The notes beneath the pieces were generated by a model, which did not search any database, had not been told where the DNA came from, and saw only the letters and a program-made list of their open reading frames with translations. This document shows positions 35,987 through 48,003 of a stretch of DNA of 64,000 nt, in pieces. The stretch spans positions 1 through 64,000 of the forward strand of contig CACJRI010000007.1 of NCBI GenBank assembly GCA_902595715.1. The letters run 5' to 3'. How positions within the stretch are numbered: position 1 is the first letter of the stretch; each line of letters opens with the position of its first letter. The position numbers were made by a program, and so were the translations under genes. The DNA is from an uncultured SAR86 cluster bacterium (GTDB lineage Bacteria; Pseudomonadota; Gammaproteobacteria; Magnimaribacterales; AG-339-G14).

Positions 35987-36565
35987 TCAGAGTTTTTTTA
36001 TGTTTCCAGATTTATAAACTTGATAACCTGTAAAATTAACATTGGAATACTCTTTTTTGAGGGACAAAAAAGCTTTTAAGTTATTTTTGTCATCATCAAA
36101 CAGTCTAATCCTTGCGTAGCGTCCTGTATCTAAATATTTTTTAAAAATTATCACTTTATTTTCGCTTGCTGTTTCTTTGCCTATATTCCCAGCTCGCTCG
36201 ACATACACTCTTCCGATATCAATACCTTGTGCTTTAAAAGCTTCTTTGAAAAGTTTTTTGTCATCCATGTCCTGTCTAGCAGTTACTATAATGACCTTTG
36301 ATCCTTTGCGAGTGGCAAAATGAATGATGCGTTTTGCTCTTTTTATTACTTTAGCTATAGGGGTAGAAGTCTCTTTAAAAATTTTTGCCGACTTGAATTG
36401 TCCGTAGTTAAACACTTCACCTTGTTTTAATCGATATGAATTGTATTCTTGATTATCTAATATTCTGACGATTTTATCTTCTTTGAAAACTTGAACTTTT
36501 GCTTTGGTATGAAATAGAGTCTCATCTATATCAAAAATTGTCAGCCCTACTTTTTTGGAATCCAA
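35987..36565 (-). CDS. HAD-superfamily hydrolase, phage-type
   Basis: A 192-residue protein with HAD motif I FDIDETLF (Asp12, Asp14), motif II in VIIVTARQD, a conserved Lys region after TASENK, and motif IV RLFDDDKNN. No cap domain is evident, so the substrate may be a large molecule such as a nucleic-acid end or protein. Similar stand-alone proteins occur in phages and accessory regions. The start is a TTG at 36563-36565 with AAGGA upstream. It is 16 bases downstream of a small family-A gene on the same strand, likely cotranscribed. Confidence 0.7.
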   Translation of the reverse strand: MDSKKVGLTIFDIDETLFHTKAKVQVFKEDKIVRILDNQEYNSYRLKQGEVFNYGQFKSAKIFKETSTPIAKVIKRAKRIIHFATRKGSKVIIVTARQDMDDKKLFKEAFKAQGIDIGRVYVERAGNIGKETASENKVIIFKKYLDTGRYARIRLFDDDKNNLKAFLSLKKEYSNVNFTGYQVYKSGNIKKL

Positions 36566-36581
36566 AATAAATTTTTCCTTT

Positions 36582-36767
36582 CTAATGAGGCTTTTGATAA
36601 ACAGAATCTGGATGTTCTAAAAATTTAACCGCCAGATTGAAATCATCAATACCATTTGTTGCTTTTCCATTTGCTTGAATATCTTCAAGAACTTTAAAGA
36701 GATGATCATATTCTTTCTCATCCAGTTGTCCAATAAGTTGTGAAAAAATTTTTATTAAAGGTTTCAT
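36582..36767 (-). CDS. Small protein, family A (copy 1)
   Basis: A 61-residue helical protein of unknown function. It shares with two other genes in this island (37037-37231 and 44449-44640) an N-terminal helix (IKIFSQLIGQL), an acidic DEKEYDHL-type turn, a glycine-lysine linker, and the C-terminal motif Phe-[Asp/Asn]-hydrophobic-Ala-x2-hydrophobic-Leu (DDFNLAVKFL). The ATG at 36767 lies 7 bases after a CATAAT -10 and 24 bases from the shared palindrome, suggesting leaderless translation. It precedes the HAD gene. Nothing in it reveals a known domain. Confidence 0.65.
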   Translation of the reverse strand: MKPLIKIFSQLIGQLDEKEYDHLFKVLEDIQANGKATNGIDDFNLAVKFLEHPDSVYQKPH

Positions 36768-36774
36768 TAACAAT

Positions 36775-36823
36775 ATTATGCATCATAAAGGCGACAGTTT
36801 ATGTCGCTACAGTAATTTATACT
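36775..36823. promoter_or_regulatory. Divergent promoter with central palindrome GCGACA-N5-TGTCGC (operator 1)
   Basis: A perfect palindrome (36791-36807) lies midway between two divergent starts, 24 bases from each. On both sides a -10-like hexamer begins 10 bases beyond the palindrome: CATAAT towards the family-A/HAD genes and TATACT (36818-36823) towards the family-B/family-A/WYL/rmuC genes. Each -10 is 7 bases from its ATG, so both mRNAs would be leaderless. The palindrome covers the -35 zone, as expected of a repressor operator. Two related copies lie at 42317 and 43229. Confidence 0.7.
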
Positions 36824-36830
36824 TGCTAAT

Positions 36831-37034
36831 ATGAGTGAAAAAGAAAGCAAACAAATCTTGAGTGAAATTTTAACGGACGGTCGAATTATAAAAGAAGGTT
36901 TTACGGGAGTTTATTTTTTGGTGGAAGGCGGAAAGCTTTTAACGAGCCTGGAAATTCATACCAGTGCTGGAGGAGATCCAGAGGTATTTAGAGTTTGGGA
37001 AGAATCACAACAAGACAAAGAGAGGTTTTCTTAA
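36831..37034 (+). CDS. Small protein, family B (copy 1)
   Basis: A 67-residue protein of unknown function. Its second half, with GVYFLVEGGKLLTSLEIH and then Gly47-Gly48-x7-Trp56, matches segments of two other island proteins (44127-44435 and the C-terminus of 42379-42993). All three have a hydrophobic strand, His or Gln, then GG-x7-W and a charged tail. The ATG follows a TATACT by 7 bases with no ribosome binding site. A family-A gene follows 2 bases after the stop, the same B-then-A order as at 44.1 kb. Confidence 0.65.
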   Translation: MSEKESKQILSEILTDGRIIKEGFTGVYFLVEGGKLLTSLEIHTSAGGDPEVFRVWEESQQDKERFS

Positions 37035-37036
37035 GC

Positions 37037-37231
37037 ATGAGGGAAGCAACAAGACAATTTTTAAAAGTAGTTAGTTTGTTATCTGATGAACAGATGGACG
37101 AACTTCAAGAAAACTTAAAAGCATTAAGTTGTGGTGGCACTAAAAGAGTCAAGCAAGATGTTCAGTTTGATATGGCATTACAAATGTTGGTAAGTAATTT
37201 TGTTAAATCTAATAGTACGGAGGTGCAGTAA
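37037..37231 (+). CDS. Small protein, family A (copy 2)
   Basis: A 64-residue, mostly helical protein of unknown function, related to the genes at 36582-36767 and 44449-44640. Shared features are an N-terminal LKVVSLLSDEQMDEL helix, a Gly/Lys-rich linker, and QFDMALQMLVSNF near the end. The ATG at 37037 fits the family length; an in-frame start at 36995 would run through the preceding gene. The 3' end contains GGAGG, which serves as the ribosome binding site for the WYL gene 1 base downstream, so translation of the two is coupled. Confidence 0.65.
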   Translation: MREATRQFLKVVSLLSDEQMDELQENLKALSCGGTKRVKQDVQFDMALQMLVSNFVKSNSTEVQ

Positions 37232-37232
37232 A

Positions 37233-38231
37233 ATGAGCGATACAGTTTTGCGTCAGATAAGCATGCTAGAGCTAATTCCTCGCTATCCAGCGAAAACATT
37301 TACAAACGAAATTAAAGATAAGTTAGAAAACTTGGGTTACGAAACTACCTTAAGAACTATTCAAAGAGACTTACATGAATTATCTAGAATTTTGCCTATC
37401 GTTAGTGATGAACGTTCACAGCCTTTTGGTTGGAGCTGGGAAAAAGATGCTCAAGGTTACGAGTCGCCTGCGATGGATCCCATTCAAGCCCTCACCTTTT
37501 CCTTAGCTGCTCAGTATTTAGAACCTTTGATGCCAAAAGCAAATTTTAAAAGAATGGAAGGTTTTTTTGCTCGAGCTGAAAAGGTCCTAGTTGGTAGTGA
37601 AAAAACCAAATTGGCTAGATGGCGTAAACGAGTCAAGGTTGTATCAGAAAATATGAGATTTAAAGACCCTAAAGTTAATTTAGATGTGCGACAAAAAATT
37701 TATAGAGCTGTTTATGAAGGTATACAGATTCAAGCACTTTATAGAAAACGCGGTGAAAAAGTAGCGGACGAACGCCACATACATCCATTGGGAATTGTGT
37801 TGAAAGGAAGTATGCATTACTTAATTTGTATGATGGATGAAGATCCCATCAACCCAAGATATCTCCCCTTGCAGAGATTTGAGAAAGTAGAACTTTTGGA
37901 AGCAGACGTCAAAGAGCCAAAAGGCTTTGATATCGATGAATTCATTCACAAAAACAATCTGAGTTATGCCTACAGCAACGATCTATACACATTTGAGGCG
38001 GTTTTTGATAAGACCATGGCCTTTCATCTGCTGGAAACACCTTTAAATGGCTCGCAAAAAGTTAGTGAATTGGGAGATGATAAATTACTCATCAAAGCGA
38101 GGGTGCCCGATACCCTGCAGTTTGAGCAATGGTTGATGAGTTTTGGCAGTGATGTCGAAGTTTTGAAACCAAAAAAATTGAGAAATAAATTTATTTCCTT
38201 AACCAAAAAAATGAGGTCAATGTATCAATGA
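37233..38231 (+). CDS. WYL-domain transcriptional regulator
   Basis: A 332-residue DNA-binding regulator. Residues about 1-60 are a winged helix with the YETTLRTIQRDLHEL recognition segment. Residues about 150-222 are the WYL domain, including HPLGIVLKGSMHYLICM, whose arginine and tyrosine residues bind ligands in characterised members. A C-terminal WCX-like extension follows. WYL regulators such as BrxR and CapW repress phage-defence operons. The start follows GGAGG by 8-9 bases. It is a natural candidate to bind the three GCGACA-type palindromes of this island. It overlaps rmuC by 4 bases. Confidence 0.88.
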   Translation: MSDTVLRQISMLELIPRYPAKTFTNEIKDKLENLGYETTLRTIQRDLHELSRILPIVSDERSQPFGWSWEKDAQGYESPAMDPIQALTFSLAAQYLEPLMPKANFKRMEGFFARAEKVLVGSEKTKLARWRKRVKVVSENMRFKDPKVNLDVRQKIYRAVYEGIQIQALYRKRGEKVADERHIHPLGIVLKGSMHYLICMMDEDPINPRYLPLQRFEKVELLEADVKEPKGFDIDEFIHKNNLSYAYSNDLYTFEAVFDKTMAFHLLETPLNGSQKVSELGDDKLLIKARVPDTLQFEQWLMSFGSDVEVLKPKKLRNKFISLTKKMRSMYQ

Positions 38232-39127
38232 GTTTAAATATTTTAGTCTTATTAATTTCTTTAGGTACCTTGGGTCTGGTCATCTACATTTTCTTAAAAT
38301 TACGTGACCAAAATCTTCAAGGTGAAAATCAAAATTCGATATTGGATGAGAAGTTCAAAGCTTTCTCTGAAGATATCAATAAGATTGGCCAGGATCTGAC
38401 TTCAGTTACCACTCCAATAAATGAGTTGAATAGATTTTTGGGTGGCAATGTTACTACCGGAAGATTGGCAGAGTGGAATTTGGAATCGGTGGTGCAAGAT
38501 ATCATGCCCGATGGCAGCTATCACTTTCAGCATCAGATCAATCCCCAAACAGCAGATCGTGTGGATTGTGCTGTCGTCACAGCTGAAGAAATTTTAGTGC
38601 CCATTGATTCAAAATTTTATTCCGGCCAATACCGTTCCTATCAAGAAGCGGGAACAGATACCGATCGGCAAACTGTTTTGCGTGATTTACGCACTGCCAT
38701 CTTGAGAGATGCCGAAGACATCTCAGAAAAATACATTTTGCAAAATTCAACCACCAATTACGCCGTTTTGTATATCGCCTCAGAAAAGCTCATCGATCTG
38801 GTTGATAAAATTGAAGATTTGCGTCAAGAGTGTTTGACCGATAAGAAGATCTTGATTCAAGGACCCAATACTTTGGCTGCTTTCTTGGATACCATCCGGG
38901 TGGGTCATCATTATCTAAAACTCAACCAGACCGCAGAGAAAGTTGCCACAGTGGTTAGAAACATTCAAAAAGAATTCAAAAGCTTTGATTCCAGTACTGA
39001 AAAGGTGCTTAAGAAATTGGAAGGCGCTTTGAAAGATGTCAACAGTCTGCAAACCAGAGTAAACGTGTTGGGCAGAACTCTTGATCGAGGCGCTGACAGT
39101 CTGGACGAAGCAGATGAAAACCAATAA
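38228..39127 (+). CDS. rmuC: RmuC-family DNA recombination protein
   Basis: Predicted nuclease-like protein that limits recombination at inverted repeats. The 299-residue protein has an N-terminal membrane segment (about 1-24), a short coiled coil, and the RmuC domain. The domain is marked by VDCAVVTAEEILVPIDSKF (PD-(D/E)xK-like core) and by GPNTLAAFLDTIRVGHHYLKLNQTAEKVA. It is much shorter than E. coli RmuC (about 475 residues), mainly by loss of the coiled-coil region. The ATG overlaps the WYL stop, so the two are translationally coupled, and it is probably read from operator 1. Confidence 0.88.
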   Translation: MSLNILVLLISLGTLGLVIYIFLKLRDQNLQGENQNSILDEKFKAFSEDINKIGQDLTSVTTPINELNRFLGGNVTTGRLAEWNLESVVQDIMPDGSYHFQHQINPQTADRVDCAVVTAEEILVPIDSKFYSGQYRSYQEAGTDTDRQTVLRDLRTAILRDAEDISEKYILQNSTTNYAVLYIASEKLIDLVDKIEDLRQECLTDKKILIQGPNTLAAFLDTIRVGHHYLKLNQTAEKVATVVRNIQKEFKSFDSSTEKVLKKLEGALKDVNSLQTRVNVLGRTLDRGADSLDEADENQ

Positions 39128-39439: not shown

Positions 39440-40045
39440 ATGAAAGATTTATTTGATCAAGGTCCTAAAAAAATTATTGAAGGCAGTTTAGGCGAAGTCG
39501 AGTATATAGATGACTTTTTAACCTTATCGGAAGCAGATGAATTTTTTAAAAAAATAAATACAGAAACTCTCTGGAAAAGACCAAAGATGAAATATTATGG
39601 AAAGGAGTTTCGAATACCTAGAGATACAGCATGGTTTGGTGAAAAATCTTATGTCTATTCTGGAATAAGAAATCAGCCTTATCCCATGACTGATGCCTTG
39701 AAAGAACTTAGAAAAAAGGCTGAGGATAAGTGCGCTTACTCGTTTAATTCTCTTTTGATAAACAGGTATAAAAATGGAAACGACAAAGTTGGGTGGCATG
39801 CTGACGATGAGCCAGAGTTGGAAAGCTGCGAAGTGATTGCGTCTATTTCTTTAGGAGCAGCCAGAGAATTTAAGCTCAGAAAAAAAAATTACGATAAACA
39901 AAAAGATACCGTACATAAGATATTGCTTGAACCTGGCAGTCTTTTAATTATGCGTGCCCCCTTACAAAGATTTTGGGAACATGAGGTACCAAGAAAAGTT
40001 ATAGACAGTCCTAGGATTAACCTTACGTTTAGAAGAGTTGATTAA
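39440..40045 (+). CDS. AlkB-type 2-oxoglutarate/Fe(II) dioxygenase
   Basis: Demethylates alkylated bases in DNA or RNA. The 201-residue protein has the iron ligands H120-x-D122 (GWHADDEPELE) and H181 (FWEHEVPR), and the 2-oxoglutarate and signature motif RINLTFR at 192-198. The layout resembles the ALKBH2/3 group more than E. coli AlkB. AAGGAG precedes the ATG. The stop overlaps the start of the next gene, so the two form an operon. Location in the island beside methyltransferase remnants suggests a possible defence or repair role, which is inference. Confidence 0.92.
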   Translation: MKDLFDQGPKKIIEGSLGEVEYIDDFLTLSEADEFFKKINTETLWKRPKMKYYGKEFRIPRDTAWFGEKSYVYSGIRNQPYPMTDALKELRKKAEDKCAYSFNSLLINRYKNGNDKVGWHADDEPELESCEVIASISLGAAREFKLRKKNYDKQKDTVHKILLEPGSLLIMRAPLQRFWEHEVPRKVIDSPRINLTFRRVD

Positions 40046-41366
40046 TTTTGAAGATTTTCCTGATTATCCTGATTGGTCTGATCATTGGGTAAATCTATTA
40101 TCTTCTTTTGCTAGCATTGAGGAAATCAATCATACAGATGAGCTCAAATCTCAGGTCAGAGAGCTGATATTAAACTATGACCGACGGGTTTGGAATTCTT
40201 ATCGTTCTGGATCGATGGAAGATATTTCATATGAAGATAAATACTTTCAGTTAGCTTATTTATTCAGATATTACCCCTTATACGCCAATACACTGTCATA
40301 CATAAATGGCGAAGAGAGCTATGAACACAATATAGACGTGCTAGATGACTGTTTCGTAAATTTAAAGAATGCAACAGGCTTAGATAAACAAAAAATTAAA
40401 ATCAATATTTCTATATTTGGTGGCGGGTCTGCCCCTGAAGCTTATGCTATTACAAAAATGATATGTGCAAAGTTGAGATCTGGCCTGTGGAATTTTGAAT
40501 ATAAGTTATCTGAATGTGAGTTGCACTTTTCTATTTTTGATAAAGATGATTGGAATATTGGAAGAATCCATACGAAAAAACTCTTACGAGATTTTGAGAA
40601 AGAATTAGAACTGGATTTAAGAGGAATAAACGGATTTGAAAAGTTAAGAATTATTTTTGAGGAAAAGAAATTTAATATTAAGTCCGATACTCCAAATTTT
40701 TCTGAGAAACAGGATTTTATGATTTTTCAATTTTGCTTAACAGAATTTAGAGATTTAATAGGTCCAGAAAAGCTAACAAATTTCATAGAACAGATGAGCG
40801 ACTTTTTAAATCAAGGAGGAAAATTAGTTCTCTTAGAAAGAAGTCATTATTCTACCCCAAAAGATTTTTTTGGTTTATTCGAGGAAACATCTAAGTTAGA
40901 ACTATTATTTAACTCAGGGCCCATAGCTCAATTAGCTCAAAATTATTCTGAAATTCCGTCATTCGTTATGAGCGCGTATTCTGAATCAGGTATAAACCTA
41001 CCAAAATTTAATAGATTTGAATACTTCATTTTTAAACAAGAAAGCACTAAAGCAAAAATCCAAGATACAGTCTATGCAGATAACAATATTGAAGTCGAAG
41101 AAACTATTAATGAAACAAACATAGATTATTCTCATGTTCGCATACCAAACATAGAGACAGGAGATAAGATTTCTGTCGATGGATTTGGCAAAGGGACTGT
41201 ATTAAAACGTGTCGAAAAAAATGCAAACATCCAAGTTTATTTCGACCAAAAAGGCATAGTAGGGTTCTCCATTCCTTATCCTAAGATTTCAATAATTAAG
41301 AAATGGTGGGAACACATAGATCCTAATCCCTATAATCCCGATCCCTTTAATAATGAAGAAAAATAG
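40038..41366 (+). CDS. Unknown protein with methyltransferase-like core and SH3-like tail
   Basis: A 442-residue protein I do not recognise by name. The middle has a Rossmann-type signature ISIFGGGSAPEAYAI (about 125-138), later followed by FSIFDKDDW, and GGKLVLLERSH (about 265), together resembling a SAM-dependent methyltransferase fold. The C-terminus (about 370-415) with GDKISVDGFGKGTVLKR resembles the SH3/KOW-like tail of some DNA repair helicases. It starts at TTG 40038, overlapping alkB by 8 bases, so it is coupled to AlkB. A joint role in nucleic-acid modification or repair is a guess. Confidence 0.6.
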   Translation: MINFEDFPDYPDWSDHWVNLLSSFASIEEINHTDELKSQVRELILNYDRRVWNSYRSGSMEDISYEDKYFQLAYLFRYYPLYANTLSYINGEESYEHNIDVLDDCFVNLKNATGLDKQKIKINISIFGGGSAPEAYAITKMICAKLRSGLWNFEYKLSECELHFSIFDKDDWNIGRIHTKKLLRDFEKELELDLRGINGFEKLRIIFEEKKFNIKSDTPNFSEKQDFMIFQFCLTEFRDLIGPEKLTNFIEQMSDFLNQGGKLVLLERSHYSTPKDFFGLFEETSKLELLFNSGPIAQLAQNYSEIPSFVMSAYSESGINLPKFNRFEYFIFKQESTKAKIQDTVYADNNIEVEETINETNIDYSHVRIPNIETGDKISVDGFGKGTVLKRVEKNANIQVYFDQKGIVGFSIPYPKISIIKKWWEHIDPNPYNPDPFNNEEK

Positions 41367-41380
41367 CTAATAAAATCAAA

Positions 41381-41657
41381 ATGCCAAACATAACAGTCAC
41401 TTCCCTGCCCGATGATTATGTCCATTTTTCTCAGCCTAGATCGTTGACAGTTAGAGAATGGGCTAGGCTGCAAATTTTTCCAGATTGGTATCAATTCTCA
41501 GAAAAAGAACTGCCGGAGGAATTCGAAGAGAAGGAAATCCTTTGAAAAAAAACTACGAAAGAGAAGTTCCTAAATATACCCAGATTGGAAATGCCATTCC
41601 GTGAAACTTGCCTATGAGATTGGCAAACACTTCAAGAAAATCTTAAAAACTAAATAA
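41381..41657 (+). pseudogene. 3' remnant of a DNA cytosine-C5 methyltransferase, frameshifted
   Basis: Three consecutive reading frames together spell the C-terminus of a C5 methyltransferase. Frame 1 from 41381 has PRSLTVREWARLQIFPDWYQF. Frame 2 has TAGGIRREGNP and EVPKYTQIGNAIP. Frame 3 has VKLAYEIGKHFKKIL before a TAA at 41655. These are motif IX/X elements (RExARLQ.FPD, QIGNAVP..LA). The N-terminal catalytic part (PCQ motif) is absent and no frame is intact, so it is dead. It marks a lost restriction-modification or solitary methylase gene. The end overlaps the next minus-strand gene by 8 bases. Confidence 0.88.
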
Positions 41658-41995: not shown

Positions 41996-42295
41996 TTAAA
42001 TACTCTCAGCGTGTAAATGATACCCTATTTCCCAAATCAAGCTTTTATCGAGGAATCTCTCAGCCTTTCTAATTACGCCGAGATTAGAATTATATGCTTT
42101 ATTTGTTTTGATAACTGTAATTTTTCTTTTTGCCATCAAAGTATCTAAAACTAAATTAAAACAATGACTTCCATGTCTTCTACCCTCTTTGAAAACTAAG
42201 CGAATTTCAGCATGCGGAAATTTTTCTCTTAAGAGAGGCAGGGCCTTTTTTACCTCTCTTACTGATTTATTATCGTCACACCTTCTTTTTTTCAT
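41996..42295 (-). CDS. Small basic protein of unknown function
   Basis: A 99-residue protein rich in Lys and Arg, with CDDNKSVREVKKALPLL at the start, the segment EIRLVFKEGRRHGSHCFNLVLDTL in the middle, and AERFLDKSLIWEIGYH near the end. I do not recognise the family. The ATG lies 22 bases from a GCGTCA-N5-TGTCGT palindrome and 5 bases after an AATTAT hexamer, the same layout as other genes of the island regulon. It heads a two-gene unit with the Tat-signal-like gene. Confidence 0.6.
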   Translation of the reverse strand: MKKRRCDDNKSVREVKKALPLLREKFPHAEIRLVFKEGRRHGSHCFNLVLDTLMAKRKITVIKTNKAYNSNLGVIRKAERFLDKSLIWEIGYHLHAESI

Positions 42296-42316: not shown

Positions 42317-42333
42317 GCGTCATAATCTGTCGT
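42317..42333. promoter_or_regulatory. Palindrome GCGTCA-N5-TGTCGT (operator 2)
   Basis: Same size and spacing as operator 1, with a single mismatch in each arm. Seen from the minus strand, a weak -10 (AATTAT) begins 10 bases beyond it and the ATG of the 99-residue gene follows 5 bases later. A plus-strand gene is not nearby. Confidence 0.55.
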
Positions 42334-43005: not shown

Positions 43006-43206
43006 TTATTCCGAATTCTGTTCGTCATCTTCCTCTTCCTTGGAATCATTTTTTGGAAAAGGATTTAGAATTATCTTTGGTGGTTCTTGATAAATGGGGT
43101 GATCCTCAGGGAGCATTTTTAATCCCAATCGTTCACTAATTTCACGTAAAGTTTCTTGATATTCTTCCTCAGAAAGTTCAGAAAGTGGTTGGTCCTTTTC
43201 ATTCAT
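43006..43206 (-). CDS. Small acidic protein of unknown function
   Basis: A 66-residue acidic protein with helix-forming ELSEEEYQETLREISERLG, a Pro-rich middle (LPEDHPIYQEPPKI) and a Glu/Asp tail. No family recognised. I place the start at ATG 43206 instead of the in-frame GTG 43224 because the -10-like AAAAAT (43213-43218) and operator 3 then sit at the same distances as in the other island promoters. It is followed 12 bases later by the family-B protein. Confidence 0.5.
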   Translation of the reverse strand: MNEKDQPLSELSEEEYQETLREISERLGLKMLPEDHPIYQEPPKIILNPFPKNDSKEEEDDEQNSE

Positions 43207-43228
43207 AGATGCATTTTTAATCACAGAC

Positions 43229-43261
43229 GCGACAAATCACGTCGTGCTTAGAGTTTATTCT
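43229..43261. promoter_or_regulatory. Divergent promoter with palindrome GCGACA-N5-CGTCGT (operator 3)
   Basis: The imperfect palindrome spans 43229-43245. On the plus side TATTCT (43256-43261) begins exactly 10 bases beyond it, as at operator 1. On the minus side AAAAAT begins 10 bases beyond and the ATG of the acidic protein lies 23 bases from the palindrome. The plus-strand gene at 43297 would have a leader of about 28 bases. One site could therefore control both transcription units. Confidence 0.6.
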
Positions 43262-43296: not shown

Positions 43297-44007
43297 ATGG
43301 GAAATTTATTTAATGACACAAACAACATTCTTAAAATTATTGTTGTTTTGGCTTTTAGCAGCTCTTTAGTCTATCTAAATTCTCCTGTCTTCGAAGACCA
43401 ACCTGGGCCGGACTTTTCTGAATTCATGTCCTATTTAATTTATTTGGAAGAGGACGGCTCAACCATGCTTTATAGCGATGCCAAAAATAATACGATAACG
43501 ATCGCTAGTTGGGCTCTTTATCAACATCAAATTTCAGCGCATACCTCTTTTCAAGGCATTATGGCCGATGAAGACTGTCCTTTTTTTGGAATCACACAGA
43601 AACGCATTCGTGATAAGCATGACATCATTGAAGTTCTTAATAACGATGAATCCGTTTTATTGAGCTACTCTGGTTGTAAGACAGGGATAGATAACAAAAC
43701 TCAAAACGATTTCATCAGCTTCAATTCTAAAGAAGGACCCGAAGAAATTGCTCAGTATCATCAAATAGACCAAGAATTTTCTGTATTTTTAATTACCGAT
43801 GGCTGGTGGTGGGCATCAAGATTCAATCGAGAGATAAATTCAAACATCACTCATGGACTTTTGGAAAAGGATCCCCGAAATTTCTGCCGTGTCTGGACGG
43901 AGCTTTTATATGTGCCTATAGACTCATACTACGCTTGGGGGCCTTTGAGAGACTTCTTTTCAGAAGGTCAAGAATATTGTATTCCGGAAATAGAGGAGGT
44001 CTTGTGA
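43297..44007 (+). CDS. Hypothetical exported or membrane-anchored protein
   Basis: A 236-residue protein of unknown function. An N-terminal hydrophobic stretch (ILKIIVVLAFSSSLVYLN) indicates a membrane anchor or uncleaved signal. The rest is soluble, aromatic and acidic, with four cysteines (in EDCPFF, YSGCKTG, NFCRVW and EYCIPE) that could form disulfides in the periplasm. No domain recognised. It begins a plus-strand run with the 39-residue gene, the family-B gene and the family-A gene, downstream of operator 3. Confidence 0.6.
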   Translation: MGNLFNDTNNILKIIVVLAFSSSLVYLNSPVFEDQPGPDFSEFMSYLIYLEEDGSTMLYSDAKNNTITIASWALYQHQISAHTSFQGIMADEDCPFFGITQKRIRDKHDIIEVLNNDESVLLSYSGCKTGIDNKTQNDFISFNSKEGPEEIAQYHQIDQEFSVFLITDGWWWASRFNREINSNITHGLLEKDPRNFCRVWTELLYVPIDSYYAWGPLRDFFSEGQEYCIPEIEEVL

Positions 44008-44448: not shown

Positions 44449-44640
44449 ATGAAAAAACATTTAATACAATACCTCAAACTTCTAAGCCATCTTCGCGATG
44501 ATCAATTTGAAGAGATCAAAGACATAATAAATTCTTATACTAAAAGAGGAGAAAAACCTAAAACTGAGGATATGTTTGATATTGCGTTGAATTTACTTTC
44601 TAAAAATTTTGAAAAAGATATAAATCAAAAATTAAGCTAA
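44449..44640 (+). CDS. Small protein, family A (copy 3)
   Basis: A 63-residue helical protein of unknown function, closest to the copy at 37037-37231. Shared elements are LIQYLKLLSHLRDDQFEEI, a Gly-Glu-Lys linker, and DMFDIALNLLSKNFEKD. It follows a family-B gene. Its last 4 bases overlap the stop of a convergent HAD gene. The other HAD gene in the island also lies beside a family-A gene, so A and HAD are linked twice, in different orientations. Confidence 0.65.
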   Translation: MKKHLIQYLKLLSHLRDDQFEEIKDIINSYTKRGEKPKTEDMFDIALNLLSKNFEKDINQKLS

Positions 44641-45080
44641 TCAAAATCACTTTCGTTTACTTTAAAAACTTTTAATCCAAGACTTTGCCAAAGTGCACAA
44701 AGTTCATCGTCGTTTTCAAATACCATGTAGACTTTTGAGCTTTTAAAATTCTTTTTGAAAAGTTCTTTTTTAATGTCAACTTTATTTCTTCTATCCTTAT
44801 CTGCCCTCATTAATATTTTTATATCAAATTGAAAAAATTTCTCCAGCCATGCTGTAGTAGAAAGTCTATATTTTTCAGGTCTGCCTGTAATGAAAATGAT
44901 TTCAAAACCATCTCCATCAAGCTTATTTATCTTTTCTATAATTTTAAGTATGGGTTGATCTTTGTCTAAGTGATTAAAAAAGTTATGCCAATCCTTCTTT
45001 TTTGTTAAAAAGTGCTGCCTATGAAGATTATTTGCAACTGTGCCATCAATATCGCAAATAATTATATTTTTCCTTTTCAT
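44637..45080 (-). CDS. HAD phosphatase, polynucleotide 3'-phosphatase-like
   Basis: A 147-residue HAD protein with motif I CDIDGTVANN (Asp10, Asp12), motif II FITGRPEKYR and motif IV FENDDELC. The segment LMRADKDRRNKVDIKKELF resembles the phosphatase domain of T4 polynucleotide kinase, which removes 3'-phosphates from nucleic-acid ends. No kinase domain is present. End healing after RNA cleavage would fit the neighbouring HEPN-STAND gene, but that link is speculative. It is divergent from that gene across 67 bases and convergent with a family-A gene. Confidence 0.75.
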   Translation of the reverse strand: MKRKNIIICDIDGTVANNLHRQHFLTKKKDWHNFFNHLDKDQPILKIIEKINKLDGDGFEIIFITGRPEKYRLSTTAWLEKFFQFDIKILMRADKDRRNKVDIKKELFKKNFKSSKVYMVFENDDELCALWQSLGLKVFKVNESDFD

Positions 45081-45147: not shown

Positions 45148-48003
45148 ATGAAGAAAGATCTTACAAAAAGTCCTTTGCAGTTAAAAACATATTTTCTTGT
45201 CCAAGCAATAGAAAATGATCTTACACAATATTTACGAGAATTAACTCAAGAACAGCGAATAAATAAGACTTCCTTCCTCAACGATGCAGAAGCGGAAGCA
45301 AGGACTTTGATTTTTTATAATAGTGATCCCAAAGTTAAAGACCTTGATCCTCAATCACTTGCTGGAATTCAGTCATTTATATCTTTTCTATCTTTGCCTT
45401 CAAAAGTTCGGGGAATTCTTCAATTATCATCCATGCTAAAAAAAAGTGAGCGGGATGTTTTTAAAACAATTAACCAAACCAAGCTTTTATATGGTTTAAG
45501 GACAAAAGTTTCTCATACAGATGGCCAATTTTTGAAAGAAGTAAATTCTGAGGAATTTATAAATCTTTTAGACTTTTCGAAACATATTCTTGGAGAGCAT
45601 AAAAAAATTTTTCCCCAAACAATAGAAGCATTTTCTTTTATTGATTCAGATCCTGATATAAAAACGATTTTAAATCATATTGGACCTGAGTTTAAAGAAA
45701 ACACCTTTCTAATTAATAATGCACCAAAGCCAAATTATTTTGATACAGGATTTGTAGGCAGACAAGAGATAATTCAAAATGTGATTCAGGAGTTGGAACT
45801 CAACACGCCTATAATAACAATTTATGGTGAAGGAGGCCTGGGGAAAACGGCCTTAGCTAGAAAAATCATTGAACAGATTTCAAATTCTGAGGTTTTGGAA
45901 GATGTTTATGAAGTAATATACTGGCACTCCTCTAAACAAGAAGAATTTACTTTTGAAGGATTAAAGTCTATTGATTTTGATCTCTTAGAGAACATTCCAA
46001 AAGAAATAGAAGATCAATATGACTACACTTTAGAAGCCTTAAAAGAAGAGACTGGTCAAAAAGGATCAAAAATTCTTTTTGTAATAGATAATTTAGAAAC
46101 AGAATTGGTAAAAGATAGAAAAAAGACCTTAGAACATATAGGTTATTTGAGGACTTTTGGACAACTCATAATTACATCGAGAACTAGGTTAGGACAATTG
46201 GAAAAGCCTATTCGAATAACTCCTTTTTCTCTTCAAGAAACCAAAGTTTTTTTGAGGAACATTGCAAAGCAAACTAATAATGTAAATGTTTTAAGGGCAG
46301 GAGATGAGATTTTAGAAAAATGGGGATTGGAATTAAACTATTCGCCTCTATCTATAAAATTGTTTGCTTTTGCATTAAATCAAGGTGTTAGCGCAGAGAC
46401 TTTTTTGTCGAGCACAAACAAAAACGATGTTAACAATTTTTGTTTTAAAAATGTTTTTGAAACATTGTCTGAGAGAGCTAAGGAATTGCTATTTATTCTG
46501 AGACAAATAAATAGGCCAGCCTCCCAATTTGAAATTCTTCACTTAGCAAAATGTTTTGAAGAAACCAGTGATGTTCTTTGGGATCAAGACGTCTTAAACG
46601 AAGCAAGATTAAATTTAGCTGCTTCATGTTTTATTGATGATGAATATAGCAATAATCAACAATTAACAAAAATTAATGATTTGGCAAAGAATTTTGTTCG
46701 TTTTAATCAACGTGATATGTTCCGTGATATTTCAGACTCTATATCTGCTTCTATTGCAAAGCAGGTTAGTGACTTAAGAAATCTTCCTAATTTAAATCTG
46801 TATGGATCAGATATCTTTGATAATTATTATTTTATATTAAATGACGAATCATCCATAGAAGAACGAGCAGTTGCAAGAGAAATAAGAAAAATTGATAAGC
46901 TATGGAAACATTATAGAAATGGCCAAGATAAAGATGGATTGGCCGTGCAAAAAGAAACCCTAGAAAAAGAAGATTGGGTTAATTGGCTCAATCAATACAG
47001 GGAAGAAAAAGCATTAGAGTTAGTAAAGAATTACCAAAAGTTGGAGGACAGTGGTGCTCAATCTCCTGCTTTATATAGAGCTTGGGGATTAATGCTTGCC
47101 AATGCGAATCCTAGTCAATTTACCGATGTAATAGAATTATTTTTTAGAGCATACGACAGAGCAACAACAGAAAAAGGAAAGGCTCAGGTTCTCTATAACA
47201 TCTCGGTGGCTTATCAAAGAGACAAAAATTATGAAGAAGCATGGAAATTTGCTCAAGAATTAAATTCTTTAGTTGATGAGCCAAAAGCAAAAATTCAGCT
47301 GGCTTCAACCCTACATGATATAGCAAAGAATGAGGAAGCTAATAAAATACTATCTGAAATGGAAGAGAGTGAAATTAGCTCGAACAGAAGCAGGTATTTA
47401 CCTTTAATCTTTCACTTAATGTTGAAGCATAGTTATTTTGAATTCAACCAGATTGAAAATCTTCAAGATAAATTATTTTTCGCCGAGAATGCCTTTGCAT
47501 CATTAAGCAAAAGAATTAATGTTAACTATATTGATGAAACAAATGAGAAAAATTTAGTTAGCCTCGTGATGAGCTACATACACTTTTGTGGAATAGTTTA
47601 TGACAAGGATGGTGAAAAGATTCCACTGGGAATAAATACTTTGTTTAAAGAAAATAAATATATTTTGGATAATGTTGAGCATCAAGCAGTCTTAACTAAA
47701 CTAAAAAGTTCATATCCTGATCTAGACTTAAAAAAAGAAATAAATTTGCCTATAAGGAAGCGATTTGTCACTGACCAAGAAGATGTTGTAATTTCAAATA
47801 TAGAATCTATTTCAGCTATTAAAAGTTATGGTTTTATAAAGAAAACTGAGAAAACTGATCGTATTTTTTTTCATTTTGACGACGTAAAAGGAAACCCAAT
47901 GGAATTGGAAATGAACTCTAAAGTATCTTTTAACATCAAGACCTACAAAAAAAGAAATGAAGATGCTACAAAGGCAATCAATATAACATTAGTAAATTCG
48001 TAA
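45148..48003 (+). CDS. STAND NTPase with HEPN-like N-terminus and cold-shock-like C-terminus
   Basis: A 951-residue multidomain protein. Residues about 1-165 are helical with R118-x4-H123 (LRTKVSH), the RNase motif of HEPN domains. The NTPase core has Walker A GEGGLGKTAL (227-236), Walker B ILFVIDNLE (309-317) and the sensor ITSRTR (342-347), as in NB-ARC/STAND switches. A winged-helix and TPR-like helical region follows to about 870. The last 72 residues resemble a cold-shock domain, with YGFI (894-897) and FFHF (907-910). Such layouts occur in antiviral sensors. Its ATG follows a TATAAAT by 8 bases. Confidence 0.85.
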   Translation: MKKDLTKSPLQLKTYFLVQAIENDLTQYLRELTQEQRINKTSFLNDAEAEARTLIFYNSDPKVKDLDPQSLAGIQSFISFLSLPSKVRGILQLSSMLKKSERDVFKTINQTKLLYGLRTKVSHTDGQFLKEVNSEEFINLLDFSKHILGEHKKIFPQTIEAFSFIDSDPDIKTILNHIGPEFKENTFLINNAPKPNYFDTGFVGRQEIIQNVIQELELNTPIITIYGEGGLGKTALARKIIEQISNSEVLEDVYEVIYWHSSKQEEFTFEGLKSIDFDLLENIPKEIEDQYDYTLEALKEETGQKGSKILFVIDNLETELVKDRKKTLEHIGYLRTFGQLIITSRTRLGQLEKPIRITPFSLQETKVFLRNIAKQTNNVNVLRAGDEILEKWGLELNYSPLSIKLFAFALNQGVSAETFLSSTNKNDVNNFCFKNVFETLSERAKELLFILRQINRPASQFEILHLAKCFEETSDVLWDQDVLNEARLNLAASCFIDDEYSNNQQLTKINDLAKNFVRFNQRDMFRDISDSISASIAKQVSDLRNLPNLNLYGSDIFDNYYFILNDESSIEERAVAREIRKIDKLWKHYRNGQDKDGLAVQKETLEKEDWVNWLNQYREEKALELVKNYQKLEDSGAQSPALYRAWGLMLANANPSQFTDVIELFFRAYDRATTEKGKAQVLYNISVAYQRDKNYEEAWKFAQELNSLVDEPKAKIQLASTLHDIAKNEEANKILSEMEESEISSNRSRYLPLIFHLMLKHSYFEFNQIENLQDKLFFAENAFASLSKRINVNYIDETNEKNLVSLVMSYIHFCGIVYDKDGEKIPLGINTLFKENKYILDNVEHQAVLTKLKSSYPDLDLKKEINLPIRKRFVTDQEDVVISNIESISAIKSYGFIKKTEKTDRIFFHFDDVKGNPMELEMNSKVSFNIKTYKKRNEDATKAINITLVNS

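Follow-up and report, generated by a model that had tools for sequence, protein, structure and literature searches.

A DriD-like WYL regulator and a non-resident RmuC probably head an exchangeable island in SAR86 bacteria

Introduction

At positions 36831-39127 of a 64,000-nucleotide stretch of DNA from an uncultured SAR86 cluster bacterium (contig CACJRI010000007.1; hereafter the window, meaning the whole stretch), a gene for an RmuC-family protein follows two small genes and a WYL-domain regulator, which raises the question of why rmuC should be coupled to a transcription factor and whether the genes form a defence unit. An earlier note had read them as a possible defence or mobile-DNA control unit with an unusually short RmuC and a regulator of the BrxR or CapW kind. 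We compared the locus with 40 genomes of the host's family and 203 of its order, using gene maps of the relatives drawn by a simple, untrained open-reading-frame caller; the host assembly itself spans 1.21 Mb and is 83% complete. On balance, we favour the reading that a DriD-type switch stands at the head of an exchangeable defence island, located between dsbB and the backbone in SAR86, with RmuC as its co-transcribed nuclease.

Organisation of the unit

The four genes lie on one strand downstream of a palindrome (operator 1) and are as tightly packed as the earlier note had stated, with 2 bases between B and A, 1 base between A and the WYL gene, and a 4-base ATGA overlap joining the WYL gene to rmuC. 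B (36831-37034, +, 67 aa) and A (37037-37231, +, 64 aa) both fall below every Pfam family cut-off; the latter is a helical-looking small protein read from the ATG at 37037, with an alternative earlier TTG start at 36995 in the list of open reading frames. The regulator (37233-38231, +, 332 aa) is a WYL-WCX protein of apparent DriD type (Pfam WCX 6.5e-14, WYL 1.4e-7), and the non-resident RmuC (38228-39127, +, 299 aa) matches PF02646 at 7.7e-43. Close copies of the WYL gene are present in SAR86 records such as AG-404-D10 and AH-287-M14. A repeat search of the DNA gave nothing informative.

Seeing in A and B two partners of the nuclease module was too strong, because A is no constant member of the unit and the conservation of B is confined to this genus. 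B directly precedes the WYL gene in six of the seven WYL-bearing genomes of the genus, and gene A intervenes between them in the window genome only, which rules out a four-gene operon conserved as such. Gene A has paralogues at 36582-36773 (-), on the divergent side of operator 1, and at 44449-44640 (+), and at both island ends an A-family gene adjoins a HAD/PNKP-like phosphatase gene (35987-36773, -, and 44449-45080). Comparison of a structural model of B with 328 chains returned none with Z of at least 2.

A foreign allele of RmuC

The RmuC of Escherichia coli has ~475 residues, and the earlier note had judged the window protein aberrantly short and proposed looking for a full-length second copy elsewhere in the genome. 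Canonical RmuC proteins in relatives measure about 289-306 aa, so that ~300 residues are normal for the lineage, and a Pfam RmuC search of the 83% complete assembly found no second copy; a truncated duplicate is thereby ruled out. RmuC is present in 31 of the 40 family genomes as one intact copy each, with extra broken fragments in G003 and G029. The G003 fragment (contig C2, about 157-991, locus L158) contains several stops and lies near right-end genes resembling w49 and w50. Nine WYL-less family genomes have no detected RmuC (G001, G002, G007, G021, G024, G034, G035, G061 and G062) and stand outside the 20 compared below; G021 and G024, of genus g4, lack both genes at 90% and 88% completeness.

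In WYL-less relatives, a conserved resident rmuC comes after dsbB, and no WYL gene intervenes. The window copy departs from this pattern. Whether or not they carry a WYL gene, most genus-mates share 96-98% PolA identity with the host (G013, 90%). For RmuC, 97-98% is reached only by the WYL-bearing G003, G005 and G006, the remaining genus-mates with a canonical copy standing at 65-70%. A tree of 25 RmuC sequences, built without the distant RmuC proteins, unites all WYL-less family members but G008 and G036 in one clade (support 98/98), outside which all WYL-linked copies fall. Queried with a resident RmuC, the 11 WYL-bearing family genomes returned 45-68% identity or no match, as against 76-100% in 18 of the 20 WYL-less genomes with RmuC; a non-resident RmuC is found in 11/11 of the former and 2/20 of the latter (Fisher p 9e-7, relatedness ignored). 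Two of these 11 carry a distant RmuC. G008, a WYL-less exception, has the island HAD gene between dsbB and rmuC. By sequence comparison, the window RmuC is a foreign allele standing in place of the resident one, and is the sole RmuC found in its genome.

The protein begins with a hydrophobic stretch, and its residues E82, D113, D127 and K129 are invariant in 21 aligned sequences, forming what we take to be a PD-(D/E)XK-like signature. A PDB sequence search with RmuC produced a single match at chance level.

A variable island at the dsbB-rmuC locus

The WYL gene occurs in 11 of the 40 family genomes and 30 of the 203 order genomes, and the suspicion of a defence or mobile-DNA unit gained support from the variable island around it, whose cargo in different genomes includes Mza-like genes (G014), the DISARM-like DrmMII, DrmB and DrmA (G018), a helicase-nuclease (G011 and G005), and the Hma- and Ssp-like genes described below. 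A sole, normal-length rmuC in an operon shared by all relatives outside islands had been named by the earlier note as the picture contrary to its reading: the copy is indeed sole and of normal length, yet most relatives lack the operon. This pattern supports the WYL-RmuC unit being part of a variable defence island and not of the fixed chromosome.

The coupling itself recurs. RmuC is encoded downstream of the WYL gene and on its strand in 10 of the 11 WYL-bearing family genomes; in the eleventh (G027) it is oppositely oriented at a distance of about 1.5 kb. Outside the family, we inspected 12 WYL loci from 11 of the 19 WYL-bearing genomes and found RmuC at two. Both belong to a sister family. 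In G170, the WYL gene is followed by RmuC and then by SspB-like and SspC-like genes, with another RmuC elsewhere in the genome; in G186 it is followed by two genes, RmuC, and HmaA-like and HmaB-like genes. Within the family, G015 carries a distant RmuC after its WYL gene, together with RecQ-like and DprA-like genes. A protein family of 154-180 aa lies between WYL and RmuC in the distant genomes G014 (L084:8601-9143, -) and G186 (L161:3379-3843, +).

DNA identity between the host and G003, G005 and G006 is 87-99% from about 37500, within the WYL gene, to the end of rmuC, beyond which similarity ceases. Upstream of ~37500, across B and the DNA-binding part of the WYL gene, it is 53-85%, with dsbB at 84-86%, and gene A is missing at this place in all three. 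The block is better conserved than its flanks, so that rmuC and most of the WYL gene appear to have spread jointly, and later than the sequence on either side.

These data bear on a competing reading, which we think doubtful, in which RmuC is a hitch-hiker: the hotspot between dsbB and the downstream backbone would recombine around a housekeeping rmuC, and the WYL protein would control the small island genes only. Variable genes do flank rmuC on both sides, each RmuC-bearing family genome holds one intact copy, and no operator accompanies the resident rmuC (0 of 29 WYL-less family genomes), all of which agrees with a passive role, and the exchange of rmuC may stem solely from its lying inside the island. 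Against this stand the ties between WYL and RmuC in G170, where they exist beside another RmuC, and in G186, the distant RmuC occupying the same place in G015, and the higher conservation of the shared block.

The cargo of the window begins just 3' of rmuC with a gene for an AlkB-like 2OG-Fe(II) oxygenase (PADLOC CARF_2OG, 1.5e-34) overlapping a 442-aa gene without family (39440-41366, +). It continues with the C-terminal remnant of a C5-cytosine DNA methyltransferase (41381-41545, +; PF00145, 1.6e-6), suggesting that this island once had a modification system and has lost it. A PNKP-like phosphatase (44637-45080, -; PF25109, 7.3e-24) is followed by the final island gene before the backbone, a 951-aa STAND protein (45148-48003, +) with the unusual pairing of an NB-ARC domain (3.5e-7) and a C-terminal cold-shock domain (2.7e-9), for which PADLOC matches the cold-shock part only.

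Operator and promoter geometry

Operator 1 is a perfect palindrome, GCGACAGTTTATGTCGC (GCGACA-GTTTA-TGTCGC) at 36791-36807, lying 23 bases before B, between B-A-WYL-RmuC and a divergent pair formed by the A-like gene and a HAD-like gene (35987-36565, -) that recurs at WYL loci. It is the sole exact site in the 1.21-Mb assembly. Putative -10 boxes start 10 bases past it on both sides, TATACT (36818-36823, +) facing B and CATAAT (36775-36780, -) facing the divergent genes. Two weaker sites, each with one mismatch to RCGACA-N5-TGTCGY, occur at 42317-42333, preceding a 99-aa gene (41996-42295, -), and at 43229-43245, between 43006-43224 (-) and 43297-44007 (+) at the island's right end. The right-end sites of the window are imperfect. 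Several islands carry sites both on the left, before B or WYL, and on the right, near small genes such as these two, and so mark both island ends.

The SAR86 palindrome RCGACA-N5-TGTCGY can be written RCGAC-N7-GTCGY, with the half-site and spacing of the DriD consensus ATACGAC-N7-GTCGTAT given in PMC12340889. The driD promoter site printed there, ACGACCGTTTCTGTCGC, has no mismatch to the SAR86 palindrome, and the best places in didA and bapE have two mismatches each.

An exact operator is present in 10 of 11 WYL-bearing family genomes (G063 has one mismatch) versus none of 29 WYL-less ones, and across the order in 20 of 30 versus 9 of 173, ten WYL-bearing genomes having no exact site. Four of the nine WYL-less genomes with an operator (G171, G172, G174 and G176) have it at lexA and are 51-79% complete, so that their WYL gene may have been missed; two comparisons found no WYL fragment beside the G174 operator (L175), and this genome is counted as WYL-less. 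The operator falls inside a called gene in the WYL-less G052, G104, G108 and G116 and between convergent genes in G114, also WYL-less. Over 36 regions plus the window (677 kb), sites within one mismatch of the palindrome numbered 27, against 0-4 in shuffles. The equivalent place in G040, in G037 and at one of the two WYL loci of G049 carries GCGTC-N7-GACGT.

A TATAAT-like box with at least five of six matches starts exactly 10 bases after the operator in 19 of 70 gene-facing flanks, against at most 8 at the other listed offsets. When flanks were collapsed to one per genus and gene (33 groups, drawn from 67 flanks, those of L158 and L166 being left out), none of 2000 shuffles attained the observed -10 maximum. 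This spacing places the operator across the -35 element, as described for DriD promoters. Taken together, co-occurrence and geometry lead us to infer that the WYL protein acts at promoters through a predicted RCGAC-N7-GTCGY operator.

Affinity of the WYL regulator

A profile built from 22 SAR86 WYL proteins and searched against the PDB retrieved DriD chains at about 1e-10 and PafC at 5.5e-5; BrxR and CapW did not appear within a limit of 0.001. With a predicted model of the window protein (pLDDT 80.7, pTM 0.49), Foldseek gave 2.6e-14 for DriD, matched at full length, 1.9e-13 for PafBC, 3.9e-7 for CapW and 1.8e-6 for BrxR. DALI-like Z scores (VIA-align) tie full-length DriD, PafBC, CapW and BrxR at about 12, the C-domain of DriD alone reaching 13.3. 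Identity to DriD is about 17% over the aligned part, and the architecture agrees (wHTH, three-helix linker, WYL and WCX in about 327 aa for DriD), the three-helix part being taken from the model only.

Such values bear on the earlier comparison with BrxR and CapW, which retains the related fold (significant Foldseek matches, tied Z); DriD-type activators make the better comparison. A repressor of that class, with the WYL protein holding its own operon and the island genes off until a phage signal arrives, strikes us as improbable. The WYL regulators studied at defence loci to date include the repressor BrxR (PMC9122601), a BrxR homologue represses the RmuC-domain system Shield II (PMC10270631), and an operator beside the regulator's own gene fits repression too. 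The Foldseek E-values of DriD and PafBC are nevertheless better by many orders of magnitude, the profile search agrees with them, and the operator has the DriD half-site and spacing with a -10 box placed in the manner reported for DriD. By profile and by model-based E-value, then, the regulator appears nearer to DriD than to BrxR or CapW.

Relation to the SOS response

LexA is encoded in 34 of the 40 family genomes, and in six genomes of the order, all from family f2 (L168, L169, L170, L176, L177 and L179), the palindrome adjoins lexA as a further site. Both observations would accord with the palindrome being the SAR86 LexA box and the unit merely a member of the SOS regulon. Yet all 20 lexA upstream regions examined, from families f1, f2 and f3, contain a different motif, CTGT-N8-ACAG (17 exact, three with one mismatch), which rules out the palindrome as LexA box; the four regions displayed from family f2 hold both, with the operator placed after the SOS box and before lexA begins. 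The palindrome is also missing from all 29 WYL-less family genomes, and we give membership of the SOS regulon hardly any credence.

Cross-talk between two damage responses at lexA is possible in the six sister-family genomes. The exonuclease I gene sbcB lies within operator-led units in G058, G174, G111, G113 and G070. Operators at lexA and sbcB in sister families suggest a regulator of DNA-damage genes, although the exact sites seen in the host's own family, including the one at the rmuC unit, lie only at islands.

Proposed mechanism

Returning to the DriD-type switch that we favour, the unit would be the left head of the island, and the WYL protein a dimer whose WYL domain binds ssDNA arising from phage replication or DNA damage. 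In its ssDNA-bound form, it would activate promoters through RCGAC-N7-GTCGY sites overlapping the -35 element, switching on the small right-end genes and the divergent A-like and HAD genes along with B-(A)-WYL-RmuC. RmuC, with its N-terminal hydrophobic stretch and PD-(D/E)XK-like signature, is proposed as the DNA-cutting output; an island-borne RmuC would replace the resident copy, so that each cell keeps one. Genome comparison shows the architecture of the unit, the operator and its -10 spacing, the co-occurrence with the WYL gene and the replacement of the rmuC allele; we infer ssDNA sensing and activation in place of repression, as well as the nuclease activity of RmuC, an anti-phage effect and roles for A and B. 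The pattern as a whole suggests that DNA stress turns such SAR86 islands on.

More tentatively, and with less confidence than we attach to the unit itself, a DriD-type ssDNA response could be a 'second SOS', serving as the common switch of exchangeable SAR86 defence islands with operators at both ends; RmuC would then be an island-borne, interchangeable defence nuclease, phage pressure driving the exchange of its alleles, one per cell. If the proposal is true, a DNA-damage sensor known from one alphaproteobacterium would be linked to anti-phage island control in an abundant uncultured ocean clade. The 17-base operator would offer a handle for locating island boundaries and regulon members in metagenomes, and a defence-nuclease role for RmuC, a poorly understood protein, would become testable.

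Comparison with known systems

The literature search covered titles and the openings of abstracts, with most subscription papers outside it, and within this scope yielded no such SAR86 defence island, no DriD in SAR86 and no dsbB-rmuC hotspot. Comparisons rest on excerpts of PMC10270631, PMC9122601, PMC12340889, PMC4211646 and PMC12409362.

The window RmuC resembles housekeeping RmuC (PF02646) in its family match, its conserved E/D/D/K residues, its single copy and its locus after dsbB. It differs in being a foreign allele that overlaps a WYL gene and has a probable operator. The nearest prior report found of a WYL protein beside an RmuC-domain protein is Shield, in which, according to PMC10270631, ShdA is a membrane-bound RmuC-domain anti-phage protein of Pseudomonas that degrades DNA and often lies beside a WYL protein. 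Like ShdA, the SAR86 protein has an N-terminal hydrophobic stretch and stands beside a WYL regulator in a defence island. However, ShdA is an additional protein reported from Pseudomonas only, whereas the SAR86 RmuC is the cell's only one and sits where the resident gene lies in relatives; a ShdB partner was not identified in the SAR86 unit.

With BrxR and CapW, the SAR86 system shares a WYL regulator, an inverted-repeat site upstream and adjoining defence genes. Unlike the predicted SAR86 activator, these are reported repressors, with BrxR-family repression operating through 11-bp repeats with a 5-bp spacer, and they match the SAR86 WYL proteins more weakly than DriD does in both profile and Foldseek searches.

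DriD of Caulobacter crescentus is described as an ssDNA-activated WYL activator of an SOS-independent DNA-damage response. The SAR86 regulator resembles it in a wHTH-WYL-WCX architecture of nearly equal length, in a CGAC-N7-GTCG site overlapping the -35 element at a fixed distance from the -10 box, in a divergent promoter beside its own gene, and in DNA-damage genes among its probable targets in sister families. By analogy with DriD, the SAR86 protein would bind ssDNA and act as an activator. It differs in the setting of its gene, which stands coupled to rmuC at the head of a variable defence island.
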